Shown here: in pieces, positions 14,369 to 62,611 of the stretch | Layout of the letters: the number at the start of each line of letters is the position of its first letter | Position numbering within the stretch: position 1 is the first letter of the stretch | NCBI GenBank assembly: GCA_037974665.1 | Contig: CM075769.1 | Location: forward strand, 81,473,190-81,537,189 | Length of the DNA: 64,000 nucleotides | Direction: 5' to 3' | Source: Ehretia macrophylla | Taxonomy: Eukaryota; Streptophyta; Magnoliopsida; Boraginales; Ehretiaceae | Position numbers and translations under genes: made by a program | The notes under the pieces: generated by a model | The model's database searches: none | The model's input: only the letters and a program-made list of their open reading frames with translations | What the model was told of the DNA's origin: nothing

Positions 14369-14757
14369 GTCTTGTTGAGTGCACAATTGATATATGTCTT
14401 AGCGGTTCACAGTCCCAGCCTAGAGAGATGGCCCATTCAAAAAGCCCAATGGGCTTAACGACTACTAATCCTCTTCAACAATGCAGCATCCTCGCAAGAC
14501 GTGATACCGACACGTTGTAGGGCCCTCTGATGTCCCGCAGGTCAGGTTGTCGTCCTTTTAACAATTTACGACGTACGATCCGGGATGGAAAAACAGAGCA
14601 AAAGAAGAAAAGTGGCCTCAAACTGATGAAAACGTTCGATTTTGGGCTCCAAAAATGGGCACAGTGAGCAAGCTGGCTACCCCCGTCATAGAGCTCTCAG
14701 AGAGCTTTGCAACGGTATGCTGTGCGCCGCGTAACTCCTTACATATCAAAAGTTATG

Positions 14758-18181: not shown

Positions 18182-18738
18182 ATTTTCAATTTTTTTTGCC
18201 CTGGTTAGGGTTGCCAATATACTTTATCCACCAAATCTCTATTACTAAATCCCATGGAACATTGAGCAAGACAACTTCAATTCACGTAGAGGTTGGGCCC
18301 AGAAACCGAGGGCGTAGGGTTTGTGACTAGGTCTCCGTCGCTCCGGTGCCTGTAACTTTTGATCCGTAAGGATTTACGCTGCGCAAAGCATACCGTTGCA
18401 AAGCTCTCTGAGAGCTCTACGACGGGGGCAGCCAGCTTGCTCGTTGTGCCCTTTTTGGAGCCGAAAATTGAACTTTTTCATCAGTTTCTGGCCACTTTTC
18501 TTCTTTTGCTCTGTTTTTTCGTCCCGGATCATACGTCGTTAAGTGTTAAAAGGACGACAACCTGACTCGCGGGACATCAGAGGGCCCTACAACGTGTCGA
18601 TATCACGTCTAGTGAGGATGCTGCGTTGTTGAAGCTGATGGGTTGTCGTTAAGCCCATTGGGCCTTTTGAATGGGCCATCTCTCTACGCTGCGACTGTGA
18701 ACCGTTAACACATAAAGGAATTGTGACCTCAACATGAT

Positions 18739-18857
18739 AGGAACGATCATACCAGCACTAATCCACCGGATCCCATCAGAACTCCGAAGTTAAGCGCGCT
18801 TGGGCGAGAGTAGTACTAGGATAGGTGACCCACTGGGAAGTCCTCGCGTTGCAACCC
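18739..18857 (+). rRNA. 5S rRNA: 5S ribosomal RNA gene B6
   Basis: Full length but the most diverged of block B: G1A, T4A, G5A, G25C, T59C, G85A, C94A, T109C, C116A. Three changes at the 5' end disturb helix I. Probably a decaying copy. Confidence 0.93.
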
Positions 18858-19416
18858 CTTTTCGGTTTTTTTTGCCCTGGTTAGGGTTGCCAAGATACTT
18901 TATCCAGCAAATCTCTATTACTGAATCCCACGAAACATTGGGCAAGACAACTTCGCTTCAGGTAGAGCCTAGGCCCGCAAACCGAGGGCTTAGGGTTTGT
19001 GACCAGGTCTCCGTCGCTCCGTTACCCATAACGTTTGATCCGTAGGGAGTTATGCGGCGCACAGCATACCGTTGTAAAGCTCTCTGAGAGCTCTACTACG
19101 GGGGCAGCCAGCTTGCTCGCTGTGCCCATTTTTGGAGCCCAAAATTGAACGTTTTCATCAATTTCAGGCCACTTTTCTTCTTTTGCTCTGTTTTTCGGTC
19201 CGGGATCCTTACATCATGAACTGTTAAAAGGACGACAACCTGACTCACGGGACATCAGAGGGCCCTACAACGTGTCAATATCATGTCTTGCGAGGATGCT
19301 ACGTTGTTGAAGCAGATGGTTTGTCGTTAAGCCCATTGGGCCTTTTGAATGGGCCATTTCTCTAGGCTGGGACTGTGAACCGTTAACAAATAAAGGAATT
19401 GTTCCCTCAACATGAC

Positions 19417-19535
19417 GGGTGCGATCATACAAGCACTAATGCACCGGATCCCATCAGAACTCCGAAGTTAAGCGTACTTGGGCGAGAGTAGTACTAGGTT
19501 GGGTGACCTCGTGGGATGTCCTCGTGTTGCACCCC
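19417..19535 (+). rRNA. 5S rRNA: 5S ribosomal RNA gene B7
   Basis: Full length. Changes: C15A, G60A, A83T, C93T, C95G, A101T. Its downstream spacer is cut off near 19770 and joined straight into B8. Confidence 0.94.
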
Positions 19536-19773
19536 CTTTTCATTTTTTTTTGGCCTGGTTAGGGTTGCCAAGATACTTTATCCACCAAATCTCTATTACT
19601 GAATCCCACGGAACATTGTGCAAGACAACTTCGCTTCACGTAGAGGCTGGGCCCGCAAACTGAGGGCGTAGGGTTTGTGACTAGGTCTCCGTCGCTCCGA
19701 TGCCCGTAACTTTTGATCCGTAAGGAGTTACGCTGCGCACAGCATACCGTTGCAAAGCTCTCTGAGAGCTCAA

Positions 19774-19868
19774 GCACCGGATCCCATAAGAACTCCGAAG
19801 TTAAGCGTGCTTGGGCGAGAGTAGTACTAGGATGTGTGGCCCCCTGGGAAGTCCTCGTGTTGCACCCC
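19774..19868 (+). pseudogene. 5S rRNA gene B8, 5' truncated
   Basis: Nt 25-119 of a 5S gene, preceded not by a promoter but by the first part of the spacer after B7. The spacer breaks inside its AGCTCTCTGAGAGCT dyad and continues as CAAGCACCGG. About 344 bp of spacer plus the first 24 nt of the gene are missing. Remaining changes: C39A, G86T, A90G. The internal promoter is nearly complete, but the true start and TATA-like box are gone. Confidence 0.93.
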
Positions 19869-20369
19869 ATTTTCAATTTTTTTTTGCCCTGGTTAGGGTT
19901 GCCAAGATACTTTATCCACCAAATCTCTATTACTGAATCCCACGGAACATTGGGCAAGACAACTTCGCTTCACGTAGAGGCTGGGCCCGTAAATCGAGGG
20001 CGTATGCGTTGTGACCAGGTCTCCGTCGCTCCGGTGCCCATAACTTTTGATCCGTAAGGAGTTACGCGGTGCACAGCATACCGTTGCAAAGCTCTCTGAG
20101 AGCTCTACGACGAGGGCAGCCAGCATGCTCACTGTGCCCATTTTTGGAGCCCAAAATTGAACGTTTTTATCAGTTTCAGGCCACTTTTTTTCTTTTGCTC
20201 TATTTTTTCGTCCCGAATCGTATGTCGTGAACTGTTAAAAGGACGACAACCTCACTCACGGGACATCAGAGGGCCCTACAATGTGTCGATATCACGTCTT
20301 GCAAGAATGCTGCGTTGTTGAAGCGGATGGGTTGTCATTAAGCCCATTGGCCCTTTTGAATGGGTCATC

Positions 20370-22841
20370 TGTGATACCCCGAATGTGGCATGTATTCAAT
20401 AGCATTTAAAGTTCATTTAAATTGTATTTTATTGACCTTTCATCTTCTTTGACCAAACTAGTTGACTTTTCATCTACATTGACCAACTAGGACAAGGTGG
20501 GAATTTTTGAAATGTTTAATAAAAGGCAAACTTGGGATTAGAAATAAAAAAAAATGAAATGTTAAGTTAGTCAAATTTTGGGTCAAATTTGGAGTTAAAT
20601 ATGAACCAATTGGGGAAGAGTTAGGTAGCAAATTATATATGGTTGGAAATCTCTATGAGTCTAGTTTCTGAGGCTTCAAACCGTTCATGAATTGGAGTTT
20701 TGTAGAAGAAGTTATGGCCGTTTTTGTAAGGTCGCGCATTGTTGTTTTGGTTTAGCGGGTTGACCGAATTTTGACCTTTGACTTCTTATCATTTTTTTCT
20801 AAATAAGCAGAATGCACACGAAAAAAACAGAGAAAAAAAGGCTTGAAACCATGAGGAAAAGAAGGAGAAAAAAAAAAGAAAATCTCAACTTCAAATCTTC
20901 GATTCTTCGCGTGGGCTTGTGCGGGGTGGTTTCCGAGGCACTCTACGAGGTTTTCCTAGCGTCTAGGAGCGTGTAAGGTGAGGGTTTTATCGTTATTTGC
21001 GCATTTGAAATATTTGTATCTAAACTTTGATTTTTGGATTTTATGCGTAGATTGTTGTTTTAATCGTTTTGTTGCTTAAAGAATGTTCCTTGTTGATTGT
21101 AGAACATGTATTTATAGCTTTTTAACATTTTCTGTGGTTAAATATTGGAATTGAAATATAAATTGTGTGATGAATAGTAAATTATGAATAGTAAACCCCC
21201 GTTTCGATGAAGTTGCTCCGTTACGCGTTCTGTTGATGTAGGAAGATGCTAGATATGCTAGAATGCCTAAATGTGTGGTTTAATTGGAATGTGTAATAGA
21301 AAAACGGAGAAAAATGGCTTAGTGAAAGTCGGGGTCGTTTAGGTCGAGTTTGGCATTTTCTCATTTTGCGTGTTGGCATTGTTTCGGGAGGCCATGGAAG
21401 CACTTTTGGTGCGATTATGGCATTGGTTGGGTGTTTGGTTGGTATAGTTGTAGTTCAAACGAGCAAAGGGGGAAATCGGGGCTTTGCGCGAATTCTAGGG
21501 TAAAGTAGGGTTTCGGGGTCCTTGGACGTGCCTTATGGTGACCTAGGAGGATTGGCGAAGTCGGTTTCCAGAACTCGTGGCTCGTTTGGAAATGGTAGTA
21601 TTTTGATAGTTGGCGCTGATTTGTGATTTTGCTTGTTATCTTGATGTTATGCCTATAGAATGCTTAGGGTTGCTTGGTATACTTGTTTAATTGGTGTTAT
21701 TGTTGCTTATTATTGCTTGTTATGCTTGAAAAGTTAGTTGAATGCTAGTATTGATTGTGATTGCTTGTTATCTCGTTTGTTGTCACTAGTTTGTATTGTT
21801 GTGTTATCGCTCGTTTATTGCCTTGTATCGAGTCTTGCATTGCATAGTGTCAGCACGTGAGTGATGGGCCTCTCTGGGTAGTCTCGGGTTGCCAGTGTTG
21901 GTTGCTCTAGCTCCGTAGCTATTCCCTATTCTCGCTTAGGCTGCCTCCCGGGGAGATTTGGGCCGTAGATTGATGGATACTTCCGGGGTATTCCAAACTG
22001 GTGTTATAAGGTGGATGCGCGCTTATTGTCATCGTTGTCAACATCAAGCTCGAGATTGATGTATCGCTTGTGAAATGGTACATTGCTCGTATGAGTGAAC
22101 CATAGCCTTCAAAGTGTGGTATAGCTTTGAATGGTTGTGTTAATGCTTTCAGTAATTGCTTATTGTATTGATTATTTGTTTTGATTGCTTATTTATCAGT
22201 TATATTGCTTAACTGTCTTATTTGCATTGCACGACTTTCTTTCTCTCCAATTCGATATCTGTCTCGCCCTCACTGAGTATACGTGTTGTGTATACTCACT
22301 CCTCACCACCACATTTCAGGAAATGCCATGTTAGCTGGAAAGTTCGTGATTTCGTGAAAGTCCGTGCTTGAAGAGTTGTCCTGCGTGCCTATGTGACTTG
22401 AGTTGTCAAAGTTGTAAAGTTGTATGCTTTTATGTATTATAGGTATTTAATGTTAAAGGGGATGTAATTTAAGTTTCACTAGATTATGTATTTAGTTAAT
22501 GTAGCTTAACTTCAATGTATATTTGTAATGACAAAGGAAAAGAGATAGAAAGGTATGATAGTCTAGCTTATGATATAGGTTGGTGTAGTTTAATTGCTAA
22601 GCTTGAATGTATATTTACTTGTATTTTGCTTGTTGTGAACCAAGGCTCGGATGGCCTTGAGGTGGTTGAATGTTTGGACATGGTATTGGTCCACTTATAT
22701 GCTGTCGCAGGTTTTACTTTTCGCCTAGAAACAGGGAAGACTCCGTCCGTTTTCCCTGAAAATTTATGCCCGGGTTTGGTTTGGGTTGTGTTTAGATCGA
22801 TTGATAGAACTCCCGGTCTCGAGAGGGATCGGGGTATTACA
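20370..22841 (+). repeat. 5' LTR of the left element
   Basis: 2472 bp running from TGTGATACCCC to GGGGTATTACA. These ends are an 11-bp terminal inverted repeat with one mismatch, beginning TG and ending CA as LTRs do. The left end abuts 5S spacer and the right end is followed after 2 bp by a primer-binding site. Near the left end is a 30-bp imperfect tandem duplication (20432-20491) rich in TTGAC. Near the right end is a perfect 8-bp inverted repeat (22275-22297). No protein-coding gene is seen. Confidence 0.85.
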
Positions 22842-24325
22842 GGTGGTATCTGAGCTTGTTTAGCTCATAAGCCGGGACAGGGTCCTCGATCTGGTGTGTA
22901 GTGGTCCTTGAATGTGTGCTTGTTAAGTGTGTCTTGAAAGTGTATGCTTGTATGTGAGATTATGTGTCTTGACATGAATGTGTGCTCCTATGTGATATAG
23001 TTATGTGTTATGTGTTAATTGTGTGCTAAGTGAAGTAAAGTGTCTAGTTGTGCATTGAATTGACCTATCGAATCGACCTCGTGGATTGTTATTTGCTTGA
23101 AGTATTGCTTTTAATGTGTGTACTGAAATGTCTTGAATTAGCTATGCCGTGATATGAATTGATTATGCTGTGCTTGACTTGATTGTTATGCTTGAGTGAC
23201 CTTGTTGAATAAACTATTTTGTAAACTTGCTGGCATAATAGCTTAAGGCATATGTATAACTGTGATATATTGGCATTCATACATGGGCTAGTGAAAGGGT
23301 AAGTAAGTCCTCTTCCTCCCCTGAAGTGGTTCACCGCTGGCTTTTCAAGGTGTATGGATTGGCAGGAAATGAATGGCATTTGACTAGCCTTTATTTGGGA
23401 ATTGGTGTTTGCTTTTGGAGCTCGGTTATTGGTGAATCTCTATGGTCTTCCTCTGTGCTTAACGGTTGTGAAAGAATAGCTTTCTCTTGGGGTTTATTTG
23501 GTTGTTCTTTGGAGCATTCTTTGGTTTTCTTAATGGGTATTCTTTGGAGACTTCTGTTGGCATTTCTCGGTGGATTTGGCTATTGGGATTTCAATCGGCC
23601 TTACTGCACAGTATTATCTAGGGTATATGTGTCTCTGTCTTTATTGGTATGATACTGGCATCCCTGACTGGAAATTCTTCAATGGTAATTTCTGGAATTC
23701 TCAGTGGCCAATTATTTAGTATTTATTTATTAGGCAAACTTGGCTACTTTCTTATTGGAGCATTGTCTCGATATCTTCTTCAGTGTTCCTCAGTAGGTTT
23801 AGTATTTGGAGTTCCTATCAGACTTATTGAATAATACTACTTATGGTATTCTTTGAAATTCTTATTAGGCGTTCTCTTGGTATTTTCCTTGTTGGCAAAG
23901 TTGTATGAAGTTCTCACTTGGCAAACAGTGAAGAGGCCTCAGAGTTTGGTCTCGGTATATTGTTCATCAGTTCGGTGTTTATCCTTGGAGTTTTCGTCCA
24001 TCTGGGAAACTATGTTTGTTATTCAACTTGGTTGTCTTATTGGGCACATTATATTTTCTCTGTTATTTCCTTTGACATTCCTCTCAGCATTTGATAGCAA
24101 AACTCGGAATCTAAATGGTTGTTCCATGGGGTTATTATTTGGAAGGCTTCTTTGGAACTTTGGAAATATATTTGATTTGGTTGTTGGTATTTTTTTCAGC
24201 ACTCTTAACAGGGAATTCTTCTATGAAATCCATGACCAGCGGGGTACTTCTTTGGACCTCTAGATAGAATCTTTGTTGGAGCTTTTATTTGGCTTCTTGC
24301 TTGGGAATTCTCGGGCAGTAACAGT
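22842..24325 (+). other. Internal region of the left element, no recognised product
   Basis: About 1.48 kb between the primer site and the junction. Three plus-strand frames of 108, 61 and 136 codons (23326-23652, 23649-23834, 23853-24263) show no gag, protease or polymerase motif and are hydrophobic because the DNA is T-rich, so I do not call them genes. From about 23370 the sequence is a low-complexity block in which TTGG, TTATTGG and TTCTTTGGA recur at irregular short intervals, up to the junction near 24315. Confidence 0.5.
22844..22855 (+). other. Primer-binding site of the left element
   Basis: TGGTATCTGAGC differs at one base from TGGTATCAGAGC, the usual plant retroelement site complementary to the 3' end of initiator methionine tRNA. 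It lies 2 bp inside the LTR, the expected place for priming minus-strand DNA synthesis, and fixes the element's direction as plus. Confidence 0.82.
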
Positions 24326-24989
24326 TAGAGATTGATTGAGTTCCGGGTAGTAATTCAATGGTAAAATCAATTTCCCATTTTGGTGGTAACCCAGGTAACT
24401 CTTCGGGAAACACATCCAAATATTCTTTTATTATCGTTACTTCTTCCATTTTGGCCTTATCGGCCGGCTTATTGACTAGATATGCGAGGAATCCCGTTCC
24501 CTCTTTTTTGATAGATTTTGCGGCTTTTATGGCTGAAATAATAACATCGTTTGTGCGGTCCCTTTTTTGGCTTGAGATCTCGACCACAGGTTGCCCTGGT
24601 ACATGTAACCTTAGCACTTTGGTTCTACAGTCTAGGTGTGCATGGTGTGTGGATAGCCAATCCATTCCTAGAATAACCTCATATTTTTCGAAAGGAAGGA
24701 GAATTAGATTGGCAGAGAATTCCCGATTCTCAACCTGAATCTTACAAGCCCTACAAGCAAATTCAGTCACAAATCTGCTACCTGTCGGGGTACTTACCTC
24801 TACACCACAACACAACTTACTAGTTGGAATACCAATTCGTTGCACACAACAGGGAGTAATAAATGAGTGGGTTGCCCTTGTATCAATTAATGCCTTAACA
24901 GACTGAGTTAAAATCGAGAATATACCTTCTATTATAGCAGTATCATCCGGTAACTCCTGCTGTTCAATTGCATAAACTTTAGCTTGCAC
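24285..24989 (-). pseudogene. Ty3/gypsy protease and start of reverse transcriptase, truncated
   Basis: An open frame of 234 codons that continues the gag reading direction. Residues 34-43 read LIDTRATHSF, the aspartic protease active-site loop. The family has Asp-Ser/Thr-Gly; here the Gly is Arg, so the enzyme is probably dead. Residues 105-112, VILGMDWL, are the second conserved protease stretch. Residues 192-203, DVFPEELPGLPP, are the typical entry into reverse transcriptase. Similarity stops at about residue 221 (nt 24326), before any catalytic polymerase motif. The last 13 residues come from the junction or from foreign DNA. The ATG at 24989 is only the first Met of the open stretch; the natural product would be part of a gag-pol polyprotein. 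Confidence 0.85.
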
Positions 24990-26034
24990 ACGCCGATTCG
25001 TTACCAGCTTATCCTGGCTCCACTTCCCTTGCCACTTTAAACAATCCTAAATTTGATGTTGATCACTTCCACAACCAACACATTTTCCTGCCTTCTTCCA
25101 ACATTGCAGCTCAGTGTGTCCCTTCTTATCACAATAGGCACATGCTTGAGTTTGAGTCTTTGTGCCTGATGGTCCTCGAGCGGAGGAGGCCATCGATCCA
25201 CTTGGTTGTGGTCAGTTACTCACCGATCCTGTTTGATTACGTCCTTGAGAATAACCCGAACTTATTCTTTGTTGCATTAGGCCTTGCTGGAAAGGTTTTT
25301 TGTTGGGTTGACTTAGACCACCCCGAGTTTCCATCTTCCTTTTTTCCACTCGTGTGGCGGCTTCCACAGCTTCCCCATAAGTTCCAAATTTTAATGCAAC
25401 CAAACTATCTTGTATTTCGGCCCTCAATCCTCTTACAAATTTTCAAATTGCTCGATCTGGTGGCTGCATCAATTCAGGCACATACTGAGATAGTTTGTCT
25501 AGACGTGCTCCGTATTGCACAACAGTCATGCCCCTTGCCTTAACGCCATAAATTCCTCTTCCCATCTTTCCCTGGCAACAGCCAGAACATATTTCTCCTT
25601 AAAGACTTCGGTAAAATTTGCCCAGGTGTAAGGCATATGATTTTCCTCCCAACGGTGCTTTACCACCTTCAACCATTGTTCTGCATCTCTTTTGAGTAAA
25701 TATGTCGCAAGTACAACTTTCTTCTCGTTATTGTAATTCAAAGTTTCTCCACCTCCGAGAGCCATGCTTTGGCTTTTTCATCATCAGGTTCCCCGAAAAA
25801 TTTTGGGGGGTAATAACCCAGGAATTCTTTAAGTGGGCTTATCCTGTGTTCCTCACAGTTTACCCCTCCTTCAACGTTATGCAGGTTACTTGCCTCCTGA
25901 TGCTCAAGAACTCTGGACACCCTGTCCATTGCGGTTGCCATTAGATTGAACATAGCCATTCCTGGATTAGCCTGTCCAGGTTCCTCTACCGGCTCAGCAT
26001 TCCTATCAGTTCTTTGTGTACTAGGTCCAGCCAT
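24990..26034 (-). pseudogene. Ty3/gypsy gag pseudogene with two zinc knuckles
   Basis: Gag would form the particle that packages element RNA. It starts at the Met of MAGPSTQ (26034-26032). The reading frame is broken at least twice (near 25750 and near 25530) and carries stops near 25438, 25205 and at 25047-25049. Capsid-type sequence is clear in the pieces, for example PPKFFGEPDDEKAKAWL and LLKRDAEQWLK. Two CCHC zinc knuckles follow: 25101-25142 (C-A-Y-C, then H and C at the correct spacing) and 25041-25082, the second interrupted by an in-frame TAG. The stop near 25205 is TGA, compatible with decay of a methylated CGA. Protease follows in the same direction. Confidence 0.87.
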
Positions 26035-26194
26035 ATTCTCTAAACACACGCAAATATCCTCAGTTGTTTATCACGCAAAATAACAAGTTATAGCACATAG
26101 TTATTCAAATTAAAAACACATAGGCATATTCTTAGGTCAAGGCTTCTAACCCCAAGCCCAGCGTTTCTAAACCCGGCTTCTAAGGCATTACTAT

Positions 26195-26206
26195 GCTCTG
26201 ATACCA
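26195..26206 (-). other. Primer-binding site of the right element
   Basis: On the minus strand TGGTATCAGAGC, an exact copy of the common plant site for initiator methionine tRNA. It is 2 bp inside the LTR end TTACA and fixes the element's direction as minus. The leader between it and the gag start is about 160 bp. Confidence 0.9.
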
Positions 26207-26208
26207 AC

Positions 26209-29200
26209 TGTAATGACCCAAAATCCTGATCCTTCTCAGGATACAATGAGAGGTCAAGATAAATAGCTATACTTATTCAAATGCAAAATAAGAACTGAAA
26301 GCGGAACATACTAAGCTAATATAGATATAACCTTTCGTATTACAACCATCCAACCAGACTCTGAGTTGACAAAAATGAGTCCGGAACTAGACTAGTACAC
26401 CTATTCTTCATACATAATACCGTAGTAGACCACATATGTAGTCATACATGGTCCAAACCCTATATCTAACATTGTGTCATTTATTATTACATCATATAGT
26501 AGGTGATGTGGTATTTCTTGGTTCACCAAGTCTTCGTTGAAAAGGTAATGCTGATGGATGATAACATCAACACTCCGTGGAATCAAGTGATCCAAATCCC
26601 TCAGCACACAGAAAAGGCACATTCTCATTTCCCGGTTATTCCTCTTCTGCCATGGCTTCACCTGAAGTGGAGGTGGTAAGGGTCGTGAACCCTAAGAACT
26701 CAGCGAGGGTAAGTCAACCGGGGGTGGTTTTGAAAACATTTTCGAATTTTGAAAACAATGATGCAATGCCAGCATATAATAATATTCACAACTTATTTAC
26801 AGATGATAAGAAATAATAGCATATGTTGTCTAGTAACATTTAGTGGCAAGCATCCACATCAGCTATCAGCCTACTCTCTGAGGTTGGAATGCCAACCGAG
26901 GGTAGGACACTACTCTGCGAGGGTGGTACCAAGCGAGAGTAGGAACAAGTATTTCATGAGGTGGCCAACCTTTGATCAGAATTTCAACTTCTTATCTCTC
27001 CCAAGAGGATACTCTGGATTGTATCCCAAAATCTACGACCCAACTCTCCGAGAGTGGAAGGCCAAGCGAGAGAGGGACTAGGACCACGATAGTCACGGGA
27101 TCACCGGCAAACCCTATGCTGCCCGGTGTTCGTGAAACGCTATCGTGCCTGAGGTTGCAACCCCCAAGTAGCTCACAAGTATGCTTAGGTAATCACATAA
27201 TGAGAGTACGACATAGCAGGCCATCTCTCGTACACATATCCATGTTGATATTAAAAATAAATCATTAAGGTGGATAATAATTTATACATGTTACAAGTAG
27301 GTAGTGATCTTAGTGAATAACAAGCAAGTAGTTGAATACGTAATTAAAACAGTAAGATAGACAACTCTTTACTATAACCCTAGTTAAGCAACATGATATG
27401 TATACCTGATTTATAATTCTAGTTCATAAGGTCTTATAGTAGACCAAGTTGTTTGTCCTGGTTAAGAATTTTTGTTATTATAGATTTTATTATCAACCCT
27501 CCTTGCTATAGTCTTCTTCTAAGAGTAAATATAGTTAACAGATGGTTGACTTAGCTCGTGAAATTTTAGTAGTAGACATTATAAATTCTTACTTGACTAC
27601 AGAATGGCCATAACCTACTTAACTTCTCATCCACTACTACTTGATTTATAATACCGTATATTTCTTATCAAAACTTAAATATAGGCTCCCATATAACAGG
27701 TAGTATACACATTCAATATATATTATAAGGTATAACCTTATAGCTTGGCTTTACGAGAGGACATCTTTTATTCTTAACAAATAACAATCTGCTCATTTAA
27801 AATCACAAACCCATGTATATAATTTATTTAAAAGTCTCTCTCAACCAATCATAAATATAGTTATGTATTGAGAGGAGATTGTTAACTAGACTATACTAGT
27901 AAGTCTATGTGTCATGCTTTCACAGTTAATTAACGTATAATTTAGCTATAATGCTCTAACAGACCTACACGATTAACTCTACATATATAATAGGAGTTAA
28001 CAATGTATTTTAAAAGTTAGAACCTACACCCTTTCATATATAGAACGAAGTCATGGCATAAGACATAAAATAATATTAGCTCTTCATATAATCAAATACT
28101 TGTAATCAACAAAAGAATTCAGTAATGCTTTCTAGTCAAAAGATCCGCACAACTATGTTCATGTTATAAGCTAAATATAAAATAGTGTCAGCTAAGCTTA
28201 ATTAAATAAAATCAGCCATGCACTTTAAAAGAAACCCGCACCTGTGAATTGTTTGTCAAACTAGTCAAAGAAAAGAAATATAAAAAGGCTAATAAGAGAT
28301 TTGGTTGTGTGTGCTCTAACCGAAGCTTAACAATTCTTTATATAGTGCCTAGGACTCAATCTGATTGGTTCCTATTCTACTTGAGTGAAGAAAGTAGCTG
28401 CACGTTTTATTGAAGAAATTACTTCATGCAAGTTGACACCTCCTACTTTCAGCATGCTGATTCAAAGCTTAGTTCCTCTATCCTATTGACAGCACTAATG
28501 TTCTATTATGGTAACTAATTCCAAGCTGCTGCGTGTTTAATTAAAATTATGCAGCCACTCGGGAATGGACAGTTAAAACATTTTTACTGCCACGTCCTCT
28601 ACCTAACAAAAATGCTAACATGCGAGAATACACACGTTTAATTCCTATGATACTCGAGTAAACCCAAGCTGCTGCGTGCCATGTTTATAAGAGAACTTAT
28701 CTCATACAACCCTATAGAAAATGGACAGCAAAGACGCAAGGCTTATAGCTACACGTAGCTGGCACTTTGTTTAGAAATAATTTGGTTTATAAACTTCTAT
28801 GCTGTTGCGTGTCTTCTACTGGTGCATGGCTCCATGCAAGACTACAAGTAGTCTTATGATAGTAGCTTAAGCAGGCTAGTGGTAGCAGCGTGATTGGCTT
28901 CCAAAATTGCAAAGGTTAATCTAATTTCCAACAAATCAACACTTATAACAATTGTATTAAAATCTCTAAAGGGTAAACCGAAATGACCAAGCTAATTGGA
29001 CACTAATTGCTCATGCTTATCTTCCTACGTGCAAACCGCTGATTAGAAGAGGAAAACTTTTCACTCACGTTAATGATGGCTAATTCGTTATTTAGCTAAA
29101 ATGTTGACACTAATATAACAATAATTAATTTTCTTTGTTTAGAAATGCTAGAATGACTACTTAAAAATTATCAAACCCTATCAACTAATTATAGTACTAC

Positions 29201-29437
29201 TTTTATTCTATAATTTGAGTAAATCCTAGCTAATGCTATACAAATTCTTAAATCCAAAGAGTAATTAAAATATAGTACCTTATTTCTACCAGCAAGGTTT
29301 TCTTTTATTTGAGCTGAATGCCTAATTTTAATATACTAGCTAATACACGCCCTAGTTAAATTTAGTTCTTATCACCGAGCATATTAATAATACTCAAATA
29401 ATACAATAATGCTTGGAATTAAGTGCAGGTTCTTACA
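26209..29437 (-). repeat. 5' LTR of the right element
   Basis: 3229 bp, long for an LTR. Read on the minus strand it runs from TGTAAGAACC (29437) to GGGTCATTACA (26209), with TG and CA ends. The half next to the 5S array is very AT-rich. The half next to gag (about 26570-27130) is GC-richer and holds a repeated hairpin-like module. An 86-codon open frame on the minus strand (26401-26661) and short plus-strand frames at 26577-27268 show no known domain and are not called. Confidence 0.83.
28336..28345 (-). promoter_or_regulatory. Probable TATA box in the right LTR
   Basis: CTATATAAAG on the minus strand, a good match to the plant TATA consensus, placed about 1.1 kb inside the LTR from its upstream end. 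Element transcription would start some 25-35 bp further left, making U3 about 1.1 kb and R-U5 about 2.1 kb. This is a prediction from sequence only. Confidence 0.5.
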
Positions 29438-29537
29438 CTAATGCACTGGATCCCATCAGAACTCTGAAGTTAAGCGTGCTTGGGCGAGAGTAGTACTAGG
29501 ATGGGTGACCCCCTGGGAAGTCCCCGTGTTGCACCCC
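29438..29537 (+). pseudogene. 5S rRNA gene C0, 5' truncated by retrotransposon
   Basis: Nt 20-119 of a 5S gene, starting immediately after the LTR end TTACA. The first 19 nt and the upstream region are missing. Changes: C29T, C47T, T106C. The internal promoter is intact, so transcription from within the LTR border cannot be excluded, but a normal 5S RNA cannot be made. Confidence 0.94.
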
Positions 29538-30093
29538 TTTTCAATTTTTTTTGCCCTGGTTAGGGTTGCCAAGATACTTTATCCACCAAATCCCTATTAC
29601 TGAATCCCACAGAACATTGGGCAAGACAACTTCGCTTCACGTAGAGGTTGGGCCCGCAAACCGAGGGCGTAGGGTTTGTGACCAGGTCTCCGTCGCTCCG
29701 GTGCCCATAACATTTGATCCGTAGGAAGTTACGTGGCGCACAACATACCGTTGCAAAGCACTCTGAGAGCTCTACGACGGAGGCAACCAGGTTGCTCGCT
29801 GTGCCCATTTTTGGAGCCCAAAATTGAACGTTTCATCAGTTTCGGGCCACTTTTCTACTTTTGCTCTGTTTTTCCGTCCCGGATCGTACGTCGTGAAGTG
29901 CTAAAGGGACGACAACCTGACTCGCAGGACATCAGAGGGCCCTACAACGTGTCAATATCACGTCTTGCCAGGATGCTGCATTGTTGAAGCGGATGGGTTG
30001 TCATTAAGCCCATTGGGCCTTTTGAATGGGCCATCTCTCTAGGTTGGGACTGTGAACAATTAACACATAATAGAATTGTGCCCTCAACATGAC

Positions 30094-30212
30094 GGGTGCG
30101 ATCATACCAGCACTAATGCACCGGATCCCATCAGAACTTTGAAGTTAAGCGTGCTTGGGCGAGAGTAGTACTAGGATGGGTGACCTCATGGGAAGTCCTC
30201 GTGTTGCACCCC
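30094..30212 (+). rRNA. 5S rRNA: 5S ribosomal RNA gene C1
   Basis: Full length. Changes: C46T, C47T, C93T, C95A. Its TATA-like region reads CATAATAG, unlike either common form. Confidence 0.95.
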
Positions 30213-30768
30213 CTTTTCAATTTTTTTTGCCCTGGTTAGGGTTGTCAAGATACTTTATCCACCAAATCTCTATTACTGAATCCCACGGAACATTGGGCAA
30301 GACAACTTCGCTTCACGTAGAGGCTGGGCCCGCAAACCGAGGGCGTAGAGTTTGTGACCAGGTCTCCGTCGCTCCGGTGCCCATAACTTTTGATCCGTAA
30401 GGAGTTACGCAGCACACAGCATACCGTTGCACAGCTCTCTGAGAGCTCTACGACGGGGGCAGCCAGCTTGCTCGGTTTGCACTTTTTGGTTCCCAAAATC
30501 AAACGTTTTCATCAGTTTCAATCCACTTTTCTTCTTTTGCTCTGTTTTTCGTCCCGGATCATACGTCGTGAACTGTTAAAAGGACGAAAACCTGACACGC
30601 AGGACAACAGAGGGCCCTACAACGTGTCGATATAACGTCTTGCGAGGATGCTGCGTTGTTGAAGCGGATGGGTTGTCGTTAAACCAAATAGGCCTTTTGA
30701 ATGGGCCATCTCTCTAGGCTGGGACTGTGAACAGCTAACACATAAAGGAATTGTGCCCTCAACATGAC

Positions 30769-30887
30769 GGGTGCGATCATACCAGCACTTATGCATCGGA
30801 TCATATCAGAACTCCGAAGTTAAGCGTGTTTGGGCGAGAGTAGTACTAGGATGGGTGACCCCCTGGGAAGTCCTCGTGTTCCACCCC
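30769..30887 (+). rRNA. 5S rRNA: 5S ribosomal RNA gene C2
   Basis: Full length. Changes: A22T, C28T, C35A, C36T, C61T, G113C. CATAAAGG-type upstream box. Confidence 0.95.
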
Positions 30888-54412: not shown

Positions 54413-54469
54413 GGGTGCGATTATACCAGCACTAATGCACCGGATCCCATCAGAACTTCGAAGTTAAGC
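54413..54469 (+). pseudogene. 5S rRNA gene C37, 3' truncated
   Basis: Nt 1-57 of a 5S gene with its normal upstream region, then a direct join to the middle of a spacer (AGCTTGCTTGTTGTGCCC). Box C, most of box A, the intermediate element and the terminator are missing. Changes: C10T, C46T. The next gene starts only 364 bp on, so about 313 bp were lost. Confidence 0.93.
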
Positions 54470-54776
54470 AAGCTTGCTTGTTGTGCCCATTTTTGAAGCC
54501 CAAAATCGAACATTTTCATCAGTTTCAGGCCACTTTTCTAGTTTCGCTCTATTTTTCTGTCCCGGATCGTACGTTGTGAACTGTTAAAAGGACGACAACC
54601 AGACTCGCTGGACATCAGAGGGGCCTACAACGTGTCGATATCACGTCTTGCGAGGATGCTGCTTTGTTGAAGCGGATGGGTTGTCGTTAGGCCCATTGGG
54701 CCATTTGAATGGGCCATCTTTCTAGGTTGGGATTGTGAACCGTTAACACATGTAGGAATTGTGCCCTCAACATGAC

Positions 54777-62209: not shown

Positions 62210-62328
62210 GGGTACGATCATACTAGCACTAATGCACTGAATCCCATCAGAACTCGGAAGTTAAGCGTGCGTGGGCGAGAGTAGTACTAGGATGGGTGAC
62301 CCCCTGGGAAGTCCTCGTGTTGCACCCC
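62210..62328 (+). rRNA. 5S rRNA: 5S ribosomal RNA gene C49
   Basis: Full length. Changes: G5A, C15T, C29T, G31A, C47G, T62G. The spacer after it lost about 275 bp near 62508, so C50 starts 402 bp on. Confidence 0.95.
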
Positions 62329-62611
62329 CTTTTCAATTTTTTTTGCCCTGGTTAAGGTTGCCAAGATACTTTATCCACCAAATCTCTATTACCGAATCCC
62401 ACGGACATTGGGCAAGACAACATCGCTTCACGTAGAGGCTGGGCACGCAAACCGAGGGCGAAGGGTTTGTGACCAGGTCTCCGTCGCTCCGGTGCCCATA
62501 ACTTTTGCGGATGGGTTGTCGTTAAGCCCATTGGGCTTTTTGAATTGGCCATATCTCCAGGCTAGGACTGTCAACTGTTAACACATAAAGGAATTGTGCC
62601 CTCAACATGAT

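Follow-up and report, generated by a model that had tools for sequence, protein, structure and literature searches.

The insert and its place in the 5S array

The window, by which we mean the whole stretch of 64,000 nucleotides analysed (C6:81473190-81537189, within a 1.58-Gb genome of 20 contigs), is a 5S array with a unit of ~677 bp and 82 5S matches. The array is interrupted at 20370-29437 by an insert of 9,068 bp, which consists of a plus-strand LTR with a primer site (element A) and a minus-strand LTR with a primer site, gag, protease and the start of reverse transcriptase (element B). Reading from the left, the 5' LTR of A (20370-22841, plus strand, 2,472 bp), bounded by TG...CA ends with a terminal inverted repeat, is followed by its primer site TGGTATCTGAGC (22844-22855, plus strand), one base different from that of B, and by the first 1,488 bp of the A interior (22842-24329, plus strand), in which no coding domain was found and which measures 1,839 bp in the complete copy L009. 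Comparison with copies of A and B places a deletion joint at 24326-24329, where TAGA is common to both elements. Beyond it lie the first 1,883 bp of the B interior (24326-26208, minus strand; 4,675 bp in the complete C17 copy), with a gag broken by frameshifts and stops, an aspartic protease and the start of reverse transcriptase, then the B primer site TGGTATCAGAGC (26195-26206, minus strand), read directly from the sequence, and the 5' LTR of B (26209-29437, minus strand, 3,229 bp), delimited by its LTR ends and by the genome copies. The initial annotation, which had proposed two opposed LTRs with primer sites, is borne out at base level, and its LTR lengths of 2472 and 3229 bp are exact.

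5S units abut both ends of the insert. The left flank (18500-20369, plus strand), which includes a shortened unit (a second copy of a 334-bp period), stops at unit base 617, leaving it 58 bp short of the expected start of the next 5S gene. The right flank (29438-30837, plus strand) restarts at nt 20 of the 5S gene (CTAAT), in register with the 5S sequence beside B copies elsewhere, and the first 19 nt of this gene are lost to B. The outer edges fit different target duplications, TCATC for A and CTAAT for B, at different positions of the unit. Compared with the rest of the window, no part of the insert has a second copy and neither 3' LTR is present, as the annotation had held. No relatives were found in prokaryote, viral and plasmid collections.

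The array itself is heterogeneous. Its orientation switches at 14757/14758 in the window and, in adjacent C6 sequence, at 81463073-81463306 and 81541377/81541380; other shortened units lie at 54413-54776 and 62210-62611. In an alignment of 331 units longer than 590 bp, drawn from 356 matches in the window and C4:70.47-70.56 Mb, the mean identity was 89% inside each of the C6 and C4 arrays and 86% from one to the other, neighbours being little more alike. Judging by these sequences, the C6 and C4 arrays are old and poorly homogenised.

The two elements and the joint between them

The LTR of A runs TGTGATACCCCG...CGGGGTATTACA, followed by GG and the primer site TGGTATCTGAGC, which we take to be that of initiator tRNA-Met. 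A genome search with this LTR returned the window and 39 other places at 97-98% identity (40 of 11,328 candidates scored). A is about 6.8 kb long, non-coding and dispersed. Its complete copies L009 on C5, L010 on C4 and L011 on C20 each have two LTRs of about 2.47 kb with TG...CA ends, a primer site, a polypurine tract and a 5-bp target duplication (CAGCC, GCTGG and GCATT, respectively), and their LTR pairs diverge by 0.8, 1.8 and 1.8% (K2P). No protein family reached its cut-off in the 8 of 11 L009 frames of at least 50 aa that were scanned (a weak DUF456 match, E 0.019, fell below the cut-off), and on this ground A is a non-autonomous LTR retrotransposon without gag-pol coding. The annotation was right that A keeps its 5' LTR and has no 3' LTR; its view that A is reduced to a 5' half needs correction, A being no halved coding element but a non-coding one, of which the window copy, compared with L009, has lost just the 3' LTR and the final 351 bp of interior.

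The LTR of B runs TGTAAGAACCTG...GGGTCATTACA, followed by GT and the primer site TGGTATCAGAGC, and has a TATA-like stretch, TATATAAAG, at position 1094. The interior in the window encodes gag (PF03732, E 1.6e-7), spread over three frames with in-frame stops, and an aspartic protease (PF08284, E 5.7e-32); the reading stops where reverse transcriptase would begin, after its first codons. Past the point of the window's cut, the sibling copy L033 carries RVP_2, RVT_1 and RT_RNaseH in that order. The genome search with the B LTR found LTR pairs 7.8-7.9 kb apart (40 of 4,584 candidates scored), and a complete copy occupies C17:3584679-3595822 (11,144 bp, interior 4,675 bp). The search of both LTRs against their own genome, which had been proposed as a check, thus recovered complete elements for A and B alike. 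B is a Ty3/gypsy-type gag-pol element of 11.1 kb, and its long LTRs may point to Tekay or another chromovirus clade. Of this element the window keeps 1,883 bp of interior; about 2.8 kb of interior and the 3' LTR are missing. We also considered Cassandra, which was rejected because no Rfam 5S match falls within 20370-29420 and hence the LTR holds no 5S-derived sequence.

A query spanning the joint (24100-24560) matched end to end at the window only, among 40 places scored of 2,717 candidates. The other 39 divide into 21 that match the A side (20 at query positions 1-230 and one at 1-239) and 18 that match the B side, from position 227. The A copies read across this point (L009 and L010) continue ...CAGTTAGA-CTTCT and the B copies (L033 and L034) continue ...CCCTAGA-GATTG, while the window reads CAGTTAGA-GATTG. 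The joint is unique among the 40 scored places, and both of its sides are ordinary A or B sequence with 4 bp (TAGA) shared. A few shared bases of this kind are typical of microhomology-mediated joining.

These observations bear on two other explanations. The insert could be one composite element, or a single integration of a head-to-head hybrid cDNA, which would account for the LTR end at each outer edge. However, TCATC and CTAAT make no target duplication, the flanks leave a gap of 77 bp in the unit, to which any number of whole units may be added, both outer ends are starts of 5' LTRs, and none of the 39 other scored places repeats the joint. A complete element with the whole arrangement, the finding that would have spoken against the annotation, was likewise not seen at those places. 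The unequal edges and the unique joint rule this explanation out, and we leave it practically no probability. Alternatively, two array copies could have been misjoined inside A and B during assembly, long 5S arrays with repeated elements being difficult to assemble. A misjoin normally needs long shared sequence, however, and the two sides share 4 bp only; moreover, the window is free of any run of N. We regard such an artefact as highly unlikely.

Copies of B and A beside 5S genes elsewhere in the genome

A 400-bp query across the B/5S edge matched, in full length or within four bases, 22 other places among the matches listed, distributed over seven chromosomes (C1, C2, C4, C6, C8, C14 and C17); 17 further listed rows match the B half only. 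The B insertion is therefore not private to this array, the same 5S base being occupied at these 22 listed places. For two B copies both edges were read, and these agree with a CTAAT duplication (5S nt 20-24), the last LTR base is changed in the C4 copy, and some B-like LTR starts have no adjoining 5S (C17:1504415 and C1:2988756). Among the closest B copies, many are in regions toward a chromosome end (C17 at 0.5-9 Mb, C4 at 79-89 of 90.6 Mb, C6 at 79-81.5 of 83.3 Mb), with exceptions on C8 and at C4:32.6 Mb.

The shared base suggested strict targeting of B to the 5S gene, which is disfavoured since the flanking units share descent. Among 325 sequences (units over 640 bp), the units flanking B in the window, on C17 and on C4 are mutual best matches: the window unit is 96.7% identical to that of C17 and 92.6% to that of C4, the next best being 91.6%, and on the other side the C17 and C4 units are 93.5% identical, the next best being 92.5%. 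The flank at C6:79.16 Mb matches that of the window at 96.7% over 2 kb in register; for the flank at C1:126.37 Mb, likewise in register, the identity is 95.6 and 97.5% in units one and two and 88.7% in unit three. Because of this shared descent, it is strongly indicated that the B insertion is old and has apparently been multiplied together with its surrounding 5S DNA by the copying of array segments.

The LTRs of B do not settle the matter. By bit score, the 5' LTR of the window is nearer to the 5' than to the 3' LTR in all eight copies compared (those with both LTRs listed near full length, copies with a missing or short LTR having been dropped), and yet when six copies are compared over the initial 500 bp, the 3' LTRs are if anything the closer ones (mean 6.7 vs 8.5 differences). 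The LTR tree is star-like, the two LTRs of a given copy do not group together, and two sites show sharing within a copy. LTR grouping was therefore rejected as proof of duplication; the two comparisons disagree, the LTR data are neutral on the spread of B, and the claim is carried by the flanks. From the C4 copy the LTR differs by about 3% and the flanks by 7%, which is indicative that the flanks changed faster or were converted.

For A, an edge query built at unit base 617, which finds only sites near that base and hence gives no unbiased map, detected 12 other places joined to 5S; 27 of the 40 listed places have no joined 5S flank. The ten A/5S edges read (eight of the twelve, L010 and the window) fall at base 617 (five), base 619 (four) and base 629 (L010). 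With one base-619 edge left out of the flank matrix for its changed LTR start, two groups are 94-98% identical and other pairs 81-92%, the between-unit background being 86-89%. These identities suggest that the ten edges may represent about six events, four of them at exactly base 617, which is 58 bp upstream of the gene. Four joined A sites were also recovered by a control probe placed near unit base 300, and confinement of A to the base-617 site is excluded. No tRNA genes were found at the 11 A loci or empty sites scanned. That A is a Pol III-targeted integrator of the Ty3-like kind was rejected, since most places have no 5S flank, A also occurs elsewhere in 5S units and tRNA genes are absent. 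With edges at nearly one base and mostly unrelated flanks, A might favour integration immediately upstream of plant 5S genes, but such a hot spot is weakened by the control and is doubtful; if it held independently of the probe bias, LTR elements of this plant would prefer the neighbourhood of a Pol III gene, and the meeting of A and B would be explained.

Three more LTR insertions were noticed in 5S arrays (C6:81450393-81461052, C6:81566167-81573942 and C4:70547569-70554373). Two of them, a relative of A and a member of another family, are inserted within the 5S gene at sites offset by a single base (nt 72-76 and 71-75); the remaining one is at about unit base 165-170 and shows no clear duplication.

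The undeleted sibling on C17 and the probable history of the insert

Over its full 1,870 bp the left flank of the insert (18500-20369), shortened unit included, is 97% identical to C17:3526233-3528100; a second full-length match, at 95%, is C17:3298339-3300206, which counts against the deletion reading given below. The right flank matches the 5S sequence beside the B copy ending at C17:3595822 at 97% over 1.4 kb in register (~90% out of register). Both flanks of the window thus match one C17 stretch, on the same strand and in the same order, 67.7 kb apart. The shortened unit beside the insert (19441-20105) is common to this sibling and so predates the copying. A probe uniting the two sides of A's site gave an unbroken match at C17:3527901-3528277, and hence A is absent there. 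The complete B and the uninterrupted 5S unit at A's site on C17 indicate that A inserted later than B.

On C17, B is full length and A's site lies 56,578 bp from its 3' edge. If C17 keeps the old spacing, the loss on C6 would be about 65.4 kb, which is an estimate, given that the length of arrays is not constant. Immediately left of B, C17 has 6 kb of 5S units for which 184 kb of C6 offer no close match (best 90.6-92.5%). The missing match would fit a deletion, and would also fit arrays that differ for another reason.

If A had sat in one and B in the other of two sibling 5S arrays or homologues, an illegitimate exchange between them would yield the same junction with no internal deletion on a single chromosome. 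The many sibling segments with B on several chromosomes speak for it, as do the orientation flips, which show that such arrays rearrange. The agreement of both flanks with one C17 stretch in order, strand and spacing of 67.7 kb is, however, what a simple deletion predicts, and we hold an exchange to be unlikely.

We conclude that the insert is very probably the scar of a large, microhomology-joined deletion between two unrelated retrotransposons. The two opposite insertions followed by a deletion from inside one to inside the other, as first proposed, are thus supported by the unequal edges, the unique microhomologous joint and the undeleted C17 sibling. It is strongly indicated that the Ty3/gypsy-type B would first have inserted in a 5S gene after nt 19, the array piece bearing it then spreading by copying to further 5S arrays, including one on C17. 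The empty C17 site indicates that the non-autonomous A would next have entered the C6 copy in the opposite direction to B, landing 58 bp upstream of a 5S gene, at a distance of tens of kb from B. Breaks inside A and B would finally have been joined at the shared TAGA, with loss of A's terminal portion, the intervening array and B's 3' part (about 65 kb if the C17 spacing is original); the joint is shown, and the repair route is suggested by its four bases. In plants, illegitimate recombination truncates LTR elements, with loss of one LTR and part of the interior and a few shared bases at the joint. Unlike such ordinary truncated elements, here one event would have cut two unrelated, opposite elements tens of kb apart. 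Most likely, the insert is a scar without function, and the two inward-facing LTR promoters predicted from the sequence would most likely be a by-product of the deletion; the double-stranded RNA over the junction proposed in the annotation would be hypothetical.

Residents of rRNA genes are described elsewhere. TRRT in tomato 18S rDNA is a Ty3/gypsy-type element found in many copies at one rRNA-gene base, with LTR pairs of one copy that do not cluster, copies outside rDNA and a spread attributed to segmental duplication (PMC2679016). On the features given there, B resembles TRRT in its Ty3/gypsy type, its single rRNA-gene base in many copies, its non-clustering LTR pairs, its copies outside rDNA and its apparent spread by duplication, and differs in occupying the 5S gene in arrays on seven chromosomes, with shared descent apparent from the flanking 5S units and LTR data that are neutral. 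The chromovirus Beon1 in beet 18S rDNA has a conserved insertion base and a 5-bp duplication and is thought to stem from one integration (PMC3605345). As far as that account goes, B shares the single insertion base with its 5-bp duplication and differs in residing in 5S rather than 18S, B being classed here to the Ty3/gypsy level. In Ensete glaucum an LTR element lies inside a 5S array, an interruption like the present one; the part of that report drawn upon describes no fused opposite pair or shared site (PMC9055855). The titles and abstract openings listed in literature searches likewise describe no fused opposite pair in a 5S array.

B is a 5S counterpart of the 18S residents TRRT and Beon1, apparently multiplied by array copying, which without the flank comparison would pass for repeated targeted insertion. 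In essence, the locus offers the base-exact scar left in a 5S array by a probable deletion of tens of kb, for which an undeleted sibling allows comparison, and an ordered history in which B would have spread with 5S segments, followed by A and then by the deletion.
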